From contig NZ_JAVRIC010000024.1 in assembly GCF_031846245.1 (NCBI RefSeq), forward strand, positions 1 to 64,000: a DNA stretch of 64,000 nt. The letters are read 5' to 3'. Positions 50,144-53,295 of the stretch are shown piece after piece; the first letter of the stretch is position 1; every line of letters begins with the position of its first letter. The translations under genes were made by a program, and so were the position numbers. The notes below the pieces were generated by a model. It made no database searches. It saw only the letters and a list, made by a program, of their open reading frames with translations, and was not told where the DNA came from. The DNA is from Banduia mediterranea. GTDB taxonomy: Bacteria; Pseudomonadota; Gammaproteobacteria; Nevskiales; Nevskiaceae.

Positions 50144-51397
50144 ATGTCGGATAGCAGTCCCGCAACCAACAAACCCACCACCGTTATCGTTGGAGGGGGG
50201 CAGGCCGGTTCGGAAGCCGCCTCCGCGCTGCGACAGGCAGGCTTCGAGGGTCGAGTCATCCTGATTGGCGAGGAGCCGTACCCGCCGTATCGTCGTCCGC
50301 CGCTGTCCAAGGCGTTCCTGTCGGGTGACGCAGCTGCGGAGACGCTGCTGATCAAGCCGCTGAGTGCTTATGAAAAGGCCGGAATCGAATACATCGGCGG
50401 CATGCGCGTGGTCAATGTGGAACGTGAACTCAAGCGCGTTGAGCTTCAGGATGGCCGTGAACTCGATTACGACTTTCTGATACTCGCCACCGGCGGCTCG
50501 GCGCGAAAGCTGTCGTTCCCGGGCGCTGACAAGAGCAACGTCCACAGCCTGCGTACTGCCGACGATTCGATCGCCATTCGCGGAGAGTTTGTCGAGGGGC
50601 GCAAGCTGGTGGTGATCGGGGGCGGCTATATCGGCCTCGAAGTGGCGGCGCACGCGATCAAGAACAAGGTCGCGGTCACGGTGCTTGAAGCCGCGCCGCG
50701 GGTACTCGCCCGCGTCACGGCGCCGGACATGTCGAGCTTCTACGAAAAGGTGCATCGTGAAGCCGGAGCCGATGTGCGCACCGGCGTGGTGGTGCAGGCT
50801 TTCGACACCGAGGGCGACAAGGTCACGGCCGTGGTACTCGACGACGGTTCGCGAGTGGAGGCCGATCTGGTGGTCGTGGGTGTCGGCATCTCGCCAGCGG
50901 TTTCGTTGGCACTGGATGCCGGCCTGGAGGTCAGCAATGGCATCGTCACCGATGGCAACTGCCGCACAGACGACCCGAGCATCTTCGCGATCGGCGACTG
51001 CGCCAACTCGCTGAACGGCTTTCTTGAAACCCGGGTACGTATCGAATCGGTGCCCAACGCGATGGAGCAGGGGCGCATCGCCGCCGCGGCGATCGTCGGC
51101 AAGACGCCAGCTCCGCAACTGCCCCCCTGGTTCTGGTCGGACCAGTACGATCTCAAGTTGCAGATGGTCGGTTTGTCGCAGGGCTATGATCATGTGGTCT
51201 TGCGCGGCAATCCGGACACGCGCTCGTTCATGGCGTTCTACCTGCGGGAGGGCCAGCTCATTGCAATCGATTCGGTCAATCGTGCCCCTGAATTCATGGC
51301 CGGCAAGAAGCTCGTGGCCGAGCGCTGCAAGCCTGATCCGGCGGTGCTGGCCGACGAGTCCGTGCCACTGAAATCGCTGCTCGAAGCCGCCGGGTGA
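50144..51397 (+). CDS. FAD-dependent ferredoxin/rubredoxin reductase-like oxidoreductase
   Basis: The 417-residue protein is a pyridine nucleotide-disulfide oxidoreductase of the ferredoxin reductase class. It has the FAD fold TVIVGGGQAGSEAASALR, the RPPLSKAFLSG segment, the NAD fold KLVVIGGGYIGLEVAAHA, and IFAIGDCAN near the C terminus. Such enzymes pass electrons from NAD(P)H to the ferredoxin of Rieske oxygenases or P450s, but no such partner gene is in the window. ATG 50144 follows GAGGGAGA; an ATG at 50120 is possible. Confidence 0.88.
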   Translation: MSDSSPATNKPTTVIVGGGQAGSEAASALRQAGFEGRVILIGEEPYPPYRRPPLSKAFLSGDAAAETLLIKPLSAYEKAGIEYIGGMRVVNVERELKRVELQDGRELDYDFLILATGGSARKLSFPGADKSNVHSLRTADDSIAIRGEFVEGRKLVVIGGGYIGLEVAAHAIKNKVAVTVLEAAPRVLARVTAPDMSSFYEKVHREAGADVRTGVVVQAFDTEGDKVTAVVLDDGSRVEADLVVVGVGISPAVSLALDAGLEVSNGIVTDGNCRTDDPSIFAIGDCANSLNGFLETRVRIESVPNAMEQGRIAAAAIVGKTPAPQLPPWFWSDQYDLKLQMVGLSQGYDHVVLRGNPDTRSFMAFYLREGQLIAIDSVNRAPEFMAGKKLVAERCKPDPAVLADESVPLKSLLEAAG

Positions 51398-51451
51398 GGC
51401 AGCCGTTCACGCGCGAAAAGCGCGCAAGCCCGCTAGAATGGGGCGCTTCGG

Positions 51452-51480
51452 CGCTACGCCGTCTGGCTGATGGCGTAGCG
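51452..51480 (+). terminator. Hairpin upstream of pcnB
   Basis: CGCTACGCC (51452-51460) and GGCGTAGCG (51472-51480) form a perfect 9-bp stem with an 11-nt loop, followed by TCTTTCGGCTTATTT. It may terminate the oxidoreductase gene. Its presence argues that pcnB coding begins further downstream. Confidence 0.55.
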
Positions 51481-51513
51481 TCTTTCGGCTTATTTGGATC
51501 AAGGGTTGCCACC

Positions 51514-52806
51514 ATCGTAGACCCCGTACGTATTCCGCGCGCGGAACATTCGATTTCGCGTTCGCAGATTTCCAGCGCCACGCTGAAGGTTCTCTATACG
51601 CTCAAGGACGCCGGCTATGAGGCCTACATGGTCGGTGGCGGCGTGCGCGATCTGCTGGCTGGCGTGCCGCCAAAGGATTTCGACATCGCGACCGATGCCA
51701 AGCCCGAGCAAATTCGCGCTCTGTTCCGCAATTGTCGCCTGGTGGGGCGTCGTTTTCTGATCGCCCACGTTCGCTTCGGTAGCGAAGTTCTCGAAGTGAC
51801 CACGTTTCGTGGCCCGATCAGTGATTCCCACGAACGCGACGACAGTGGGCGGATTCTTTCGGACAACGTCTATGGAACGCTGGAGGAAGATGCTTTTCGC
51901 CGCGACTTCACCGTCAACGGGCTCTACTACGATATTCGCGATTTTGCGATCGTCGATTATGTTGGCGGGCTCGAGGACCTGAAGCGGCGTCAGCTGCGCC
52001 TGATCGGCGACCCCGAGCTGCGCTATCGCGAGGATCCGGTGCGCATGCTGCGCGCCGTGCGTATCGCCTCGAAGCTGGGTTTCGAGATCGAAGCCTCTGC
52101 GCGCAAGGCAATTCCGCAGCTGGCGCCGTTGCTGGGCGAGGTTCCGGCAGCGAGGTTGTTCGAAGAAGTGCTGAAGATACTGCTGGCGATCGATGCCGCG
52201 GCGAGCTTTCGCACCCTGTGTGAACTCGGACTGTTTCGCGAAATGTTCCCGCAGAGCGAAGCCGTGATCTCGGAATCGCCGCAGTTGCTGCAGTTCGTCG
52301 AGTCGGCTCTGAGCAATACCGCCGACCGACTTGCGCGTGGCGCCACGGTGAGTCCGTCGTTTCTCTATGCCGCGTTGCTGTGGCCGGCGGTGGAACGCCG
52401 AGCGTCGACCTTGCAGGACAAGCAGGGCCATCCGCCGGCCGTAGCCTGGACTCAGGCGGCGGAAGAAGTGGTGGCGCGGCAGATTTCCCGGGTGGCGATA
52501 CCGAAGCGTTTCAGTGTGCCGGCTCGTGAAATCTGGATGTTGCAGCCCCGCTTCGAGCAGCGTCGCGGCGCGAGAGCCAAGCGGCTGCTGGGACATCCAC
52601 GCTTTCGTGCCGCCTACGATTTCCTGCTGCTGCGCGCAGAAGCAGGCCTGGCGCCGCAGGAACTGGCGCAGTGGTGGACCGATGCGCAGGAATCGGTCGA
52701 ACTCAGCGACTTGCCGCCGGTTCCGGATGAAGACGGGGATGCCGCCCCGGCGACGCGCAAGCGCCGCCGTCGTCGGCGCAGTCGCAGTGGCAAACCCGCC
52801 GGCTGA
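51514..52806 (+). CDS. pcnB: Poly(A) polymerase I
   Basis: PcnB adds 3' poly(A) tails that promote RNA decay. The protein (about 430 residues) has the nucleotidyltransferase motif MVGGGVRDLLAG-PPKDFDIATDA, RRDFTVNGLYYD and RYREDPVRMLRAVRIASKLG, and ends in a strongly basic tail (RKRRRRRRSRSGKP). No ATG, GTG or TTG is in frame near the conserved start. The only GTG (51394) overlaps the upstream stop and would translate the hairpin. An ATC at 51514, 8 nt after AAGGG (51501-51505), fits best; E. coli pcnB starts with AUU. folK follows after 3 nt. Confidence 0.93.
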   Translation: MVDPVRIPRAEHSISRSQISSATLKVLYTLKDAGYEAYMVGGGVRDLLAGVPPKDFDIATDAKPEQIRALFRNCRLVGRRFLIAHVRFGSEVLEVTTFRGPISDSHERDDSGRILSDNVYGTLEEDAFRRDFTVNGLYYDIRDFAIVDYVGGLEDLKRRQLRLIGDPELRYREDPVRMLRAVRIASKLGFEIEASARKAIPQLAPLLGEVPAARLFEEVLKILLAIDAAASFRTLCELGLFREMFPQSEAVISESPQLLQFVESALSNTADRLARGATVSPSFLYAALLWPAVERRASTLQDKQGHPPAVAWTQAAEEVVARQISRVAIPKRFSVPAREIWMLQPRFEQRRGARAKRLLGHPRFRAAYDFLLLRAEAGLAPQELAQWWTDAQESVELSDLPPVPDEDGDAAPATRKRRRRRRSRSGKPAG

Positions 52807-52809
52807 GCG

Positions 52810-53295
52810 ATGGCGCTCGCTTATATCGGCTTGGGCGCCAACCTCGGCGAGCCTGCGCTGCAACTTCAGCGAGCCATCGAGGCGCTGCGCGCGAGTCCTG
52901 GATTGACGGTGCGCGCCGAGTCAAGTTTCTACCGCACCGATCCGCTGGGCCCTCCGGGGCAGGCGGATTACTGCAATGCCGTGGTGCTGATCGAAACCGC
53001 GTGCAGTCCGGATGAAGTGTTGCAGCGACTGGTTGCGATCGAGGATGCGCTCGGCAAACGGCGCGACGGACCCAAATGGGGTTCGCGGCGTATCGATCTG
53101 GATTTGCTGCTCTACGACCAGATGCGGATCGATCGCAGCGATCTGCAGGTGCCGCACCCGGGTATCACCTCCCGGAATTTCGTGCTGGTGCCACTACTGG
53201 AGTTGGCCCCGGACTTGATGCTTCCGGGCCTGGGCAGGGCTCGCGACTTCCTGGATCGGGTCGGCATGGACGGAATCGATCGCTGGTCTCGATAA
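52810..53295 (+). CDS. folK: 6-hydroxymethyl-7,8-dihydropterin pyrophosphokinase
   Basis: FolK transfers pyrophosphate from ATP to 6-hydroxymethyl-dihydropterin in folate synthesis. The 161-residue protein starts ALAYIGLGANLGEP and has SSFYRTDPLGPPGQADYCNA, the ATP/Mg signature KWGSRRIDLDLLLYD, and PHPGITSRNFVLVPL. It follows pcnB by 3 nt, the usual arrangement. Confidence 0.96.
   Translation: MALAYIGLGANLGEPALQLQRAIEALRASPGLTVRAESSFYRTDPLGPPGQADYCNAVVLIETACSPDEVLQRLVAIEDALGKRRDGPKWGSRRIDLDLLLYDQMRIDRSDLQVPHPGITSRNFVLVPLLELAPDLMLPGLGRARDFLDRVGMDGIDRWSR

Follow-up and report, generated by a model that had tools for sequence, protein, structure and literature searches.

The DNA analysed here (the window) is a 64,000-nucleotide stretch of contig C24, one of the 97 contigs of a 3.83 Mb genome from an order that we take to be Nevskiales. 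A gene for an FAD/NAD(P) oxidoreductase is followed in this stretch by pcnB, folK, and panB. The pcnB product, poly(A) polymerase I, scores 531.7 bits against TIGR01942, above the curated cut-off of 305.65, and contains the PolyA_pol head (PF01743), PolyA_pol_RNAbd (PF12627), and the arginine-rich C-terminal domain PolyA_pol_arg_C (PF12626). Against the narrower equivalog NF008634 (PRK11623) it reaches 452.2 bits, below the curated cut-off of 702, and is thus homologous but outside that model. The closest named relatives found by PcnB were Solimonas fluminis (68%), an uncultured Sinobacteraceae (66%), and an uncultured Nevskia (66%). The folK gene (52810–53295, forward strand; TIGR01498, 130.1 bits, cut-off 54.1) was used as a control.

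The pcnB frame ends at 52806 and is open for 65 codons upstream of the conserved core, which begins with IPRAEH at 51532–51549; in an alignment of 15 PcnB proteins, R3 and H6 of this core are invariant. The initial annotation had placed an ATC start 8 nt after AAGGG and had named a GTG overlapping the upstream stop as the single standard in-frame start. Both statements are borne out: AAGGG, a Shine-Dalgarno (SD)-like motif with a 4-nt match (AAGG), occupies 51501–51505, the in-frame ATC lies at 51514–51516, and the sole ATG, GTG, or TTG in frame upstream of the core is the GTG at 51394–51396, which overlaps the TGA of the preceding gene (51395–51397). The proposed CDS from ATC (51514–52806, forward strand) would encode 430 amino acids plus stop, and the first canonical in-frame codon downstream is ATG 51628. 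An out-of-frame mini-frame, TTG-CCA-CCA-TCG-TAG, at 51506–51520 overlaps the proposed start.

A leader hairpin is predicted by RNA folding at 51450–51482, ending 18 nt 5' of AAGGG. The GTG frame does cross it, as had been claimed, but the predicted stem measures 14 bp (51450–51463 with 51469–51482) rather than 9 bp. The hairpin is retained in the one genome of the same genus, which differs from the window by three leader substitutions, too few for a reading-frame test. The genome contains a single copy of the hairpin core, so the idea of a repeated element was rejected. A promoter scan of the pcnB leader found none, so a promoter belonging to pcnB itself stays tentative; TAGAAT at 51434–51439, read from the sequence, is a possible -10 element guessed from its position. 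As a raw count, 33 of the 56 family loci, but not that of the window, carry TATNAT 40 to 150 nt 5' of the core.

The region before the core was compared across the order and the family. The order search covered 41 genomes, including that of the window; pcnB exceeded the cut-off in every one and all 41 loci were read. Codon -6 or -5, counted back from the IPR core, is ATT in 18, ATC in 14, ATA in two, and TTG in five of them (39/41), and ATG was found at these positions in none of the 41. The remaining two loci carry TTG at -7 (L010) and ATC at -9 (L027). When 31 relatives from the order are aligned at codon -6, amino acid identity between pairs is 4–25% at codons -20 to -7 and 13–82% from -6 to -1, the value at -6 being inflated by the choice of the set.

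Of 58 genomes in the family search, 56 had pcnB above the cut-off and all 56 loci were read. In one genus of 11 genomes, an ATG that lacks an SD match lies at codon -19 to -24, and this genus was excluded post hoc, after its pattern had been seen; two of the 39 order loci above (L025 and L034) belong to it. In the other 45 genomes, a weak codon aligns with the proposed start of the window in every case: ATT or ATC in 36 and TTG in nine, with no ATG although ATG was permitted in the scoring. By position these are ATC at -6 (15), -5 (6), and -9 (2), ATT at -6 (12) and -5 (1), and TTG at -6 (4) and -5 (5). ATT, ATC, ATA, or TTG is thus present at -5/-6 in 43 of the 45, compared with 0 to 7 of 45 at each neighbouring pair from -7/-8 to -30/-31. 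An ATG does occur somewhere in the open frame of nine of these genomes, at 10 to 114 codons upstream of the core, and two loci are ambiguous, with ATG at -10 (L013) and GTG at -4 (L011). No ATG, GTG, or TTG separates the in-frame stop from the core in 15 of the 56 family genes, all within the set of 45. A conserved ATG or GTG further upstream in relatives would have spoken against the ATC; in 45 of 56 genomes the column is a weak codon and not once ATG, the exception being the one genus (11/56). Together with the genes that lack a canonical start, the weak column supports the ATC initially proposed for pcnB.

In the exceptional genus, TATTAT or TATCAT ends 9 nt before the ATG in 8 of the 11 genomes (counted from the output), which suggests a near-leaderless mRNA. 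Owing to this upstream ATG, the assumption that every ATT, ATC, or ATA at -6 or -5 is a start was rejected for these 11 of 56 genomes.

Shine-Dalgarno matches are associated with the column. Among 248 loci, a match precedes 52 of 79 ATT, ATC, or ATA codons at -6/-5, compared with 649 of 4,329 internal isoleucine codons. After thinning to 166 representatives (<75% identity) the counts were 34/51 and 449/2,821; kinship among the loci remains even then, so the p-values serve as a guide only. In the family, 4-nt matches were found at 25 of the 36 ATT/ATC starts and at two of the nine TTG starts.

Translation of pcnB very probably begins at AUC 51514, placed by AAGGG, and the comparison of sequences suggests that selection keeps this start weak. 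Several observations count against the AUC: a possible GTG start is kept in the window and in the single same-genus genome, and 11 of 36 family ATT/ATC starts and seven of nine TTG starts have no 4-nt SD match. With initiation at GTG 51394, the GTGA overlap would couple translation to that of the oxidoreductase gene, and PcnB would gain an N-terminal extension of 40 residues. The GTG is the only canonical in-frame codon before the core, its frame is open, and two of the three leader substitutions are silent in that frame, although they are too few to count. This start is nevertheless unlikely, as it has no SD match, its frame would cross the 14-bp stem, and other family genomes without a canonical start have in-frame stops 7 to 28 codons upstream of the core, so the extension is not conserved. 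If the guess about TAGAAT holds, the GTG would even lie upstream of the transcript.

A reading of the ATT/ATC column as a conserved isoleucine inside the protein, with initiation at another, unrecognised upstream codon, is highly improbable. In its favour, ATT, ATC, or ATA at -6 or -5 looks internal in 8 of the 11 genomes of the exceptional genus, where it follows an ATG. Elsewhere, in-frame stops come as near as 7 to 13 codons before the core, and where the column is not ATT or ATC, in 9 of 45 genomes, it is TTG, which can itself start translation. The SD enrichment also belongs to the column and is not seen at the conserved isoleucine of codon -1 (9/134). A start further in is just as improbable. 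ATT 51532 is near-cognate, but it has no SD match and corresponds to a residue found 31 codons into the E. coli protein; ATG 51628 is the next canonical codon, but a start there would lose the invariant core residues R3, H6, R10, and S14.

The wider class set comprised 171 pcnB loci, 41 from the order and 130 from a class search of 276 genomes, the latter mostly higher-scoring matches and hence a non-random sample. Three aligned too far in and two ran off the contig, which left 166 scored loci. No ATG, GTG, or TTG was available in 27 of them, 65 had only GTG or TTG, and 74 had an ATG somewhere. By hand count, the 27 loci without a canonical codon span 19 GTDB families, and 23 of them have ATT, ATC, or ATA at -6 or -5. 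The same test on control genes found no gene without a canonical start among 165 folK (one more lay at a contig edge) or 61 panB. A second set comprised 80 named loci, some of them possibly from species already present in the first. Eight had no canonical codon, 46 had ATG, and 26 had only GTG or TTG; six of the eight carry ATT, ATC, or ATA at -6 or -5, L212 and L236 being the other two. Solimonas fluminis, for example, has ATC, and Sedimenticola selenatireducens has ATA after TAAGGA. Rhodanobacter has TTG after AAGGA in both rows, and Pseudomonas has an ATG without SD match in at least 9 of 10. Weak pcnB starts are widespread in the class yet not universal, and an in-frame ATG is common outside the order.

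An ATG without SD match combined with a TATTAT-like element ending 6 to 9 nt upstream was noted for pcnB at L025, L034, L294, L300, L301, L307, and L309, all of one genus, and in other families at L060, L104, L119, L136, and L224. Such adjacency suggests a leaderless or near-leaderless mRNA. In 14 of the 248 loci, a TATTAT-like element lies 3 to 10 nt before an upstream in-frame ATG, GTG, or TTG, compared with 73 of 6,185 internal ATG, GTG, or TTG codons.

A probable precedent for ATC exists in the order itself. A search of the 41 relatives recovered infC in 39. Alignment of the 30 loci that were read places the start at ATC in 28 and at ATT in two, and 10 of the 30 have no ATG, GTG, or TTG. 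In the genome of the window (L178, G000:C11), infC appears to start with an ATC that follows GAGGA; a TTG lies five codons earlier, so this start was placed by alignment. The AUU start of infC in Xanthomonas is reported to be backed by peptides (PMC5559785). Like pcnB of the window, infC, which encodes IF3, would combine a near-cognate AUU or AUC start with an SD motif, but IF3 regulates the gene that encodes it, whereas pcnB would be regulated in trans.

The E. coli pcnB gene is the closest known counterpart, and Binns and Masters reportedly assigned it an AUU start in 2002. One RefSeq record annotates the gene from ATT, 31 codons before the IPR core, in agreement with the AUU start cited in the initial annotation. 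The same gene would have a near-cognate start in both organisms, but at different sites, AUU 31 codons before the core in E. coli and AUC six codons before it in the window. The weak start would therefore persist while its site moves, and either an old start moved or weak starts arose more than once. Only two E. coli genes, infC and pcnB, are described as having an AUU start (PMC9410913), and the level of poly(A) polymerase I is given as low (PMC9764084). A further source describes near-cognate codons as inefficiently decoded in the P site, with modulation by IF3, and reports conserved near-cognate starts in cvfC1 and ccpN of Staphylococcus aureus that are thought to hold expression low (PMC13009471). 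These are other genes from another phylum and have an extended SD, whereas that of the window pcnB is short.

A mechanism can be proposed on this basis. The AAGGG would position initiation at AUC 51514, where imperfect pairing of the codon with initiator tRNA would cause most initiation attempts to fail, partly through rejection by IF3. Output of poly(A) polymerase I would then be low. Selection would hold the start weak, which may be why the codon shifts among AUU, AUC, and UUG in the family and never to AUG; the one exceptional genus would instead use an SD-less, probably near-leaderless AUG. We infer cellular use of the AUC from the sequence, and the low output of PcnB and its dependence on IF3 are carried over, by analogy, from E. 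coli. The suggestion that weak initiation would be a conserved limiter of this enzyme agrees with the comparison and with the case of E. coli, but outside the order a large share of pcnB genes carry ATG in frame (74/166 scored loci).

A broader and more doubtful, though possible, reading is that weak initiation of pcnB has been selected throughout the Gammaproteobacteria via interchangeable routes at non-homologous sites, namely AUU, AUC, or AUA with SD, UUG, or an SD-less near-leaderless AUG, and that PcnB and IF3 would form a small IF3-controlled regulon. The hypothesis of several routes draws on the SD-less ATG seen in several lineages. If true, RNA polyadenylation would be tied to how much of an initiation factor the cell contains.

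An AUU-started pcnB is already known; what is new is the AUC, together with the breadth of the pattern. In the literature searched, a conserved near-cognate start of pcnB was not reported for any organism other than E. coli, and prior work may name pcnB. If near-cognate starts are kept across many families at a site other than that of E. coli, low output would be a selected property and no quirk of one species. Gene callers limited to ATG, GTG, and TTG would put the start of pcnB at a wrong position in these genomes. A wide group of bacteria would also offer a second natural gene for testing how IF3 sets expression. On the E. coli pcnB mRNA, a 5'-terminal AUG is reported to open an upstream frame of 14 amino acids that overlaps the CDS by 17 nt (PMC4965119), so non-canonical initiation there would have more than one layer.
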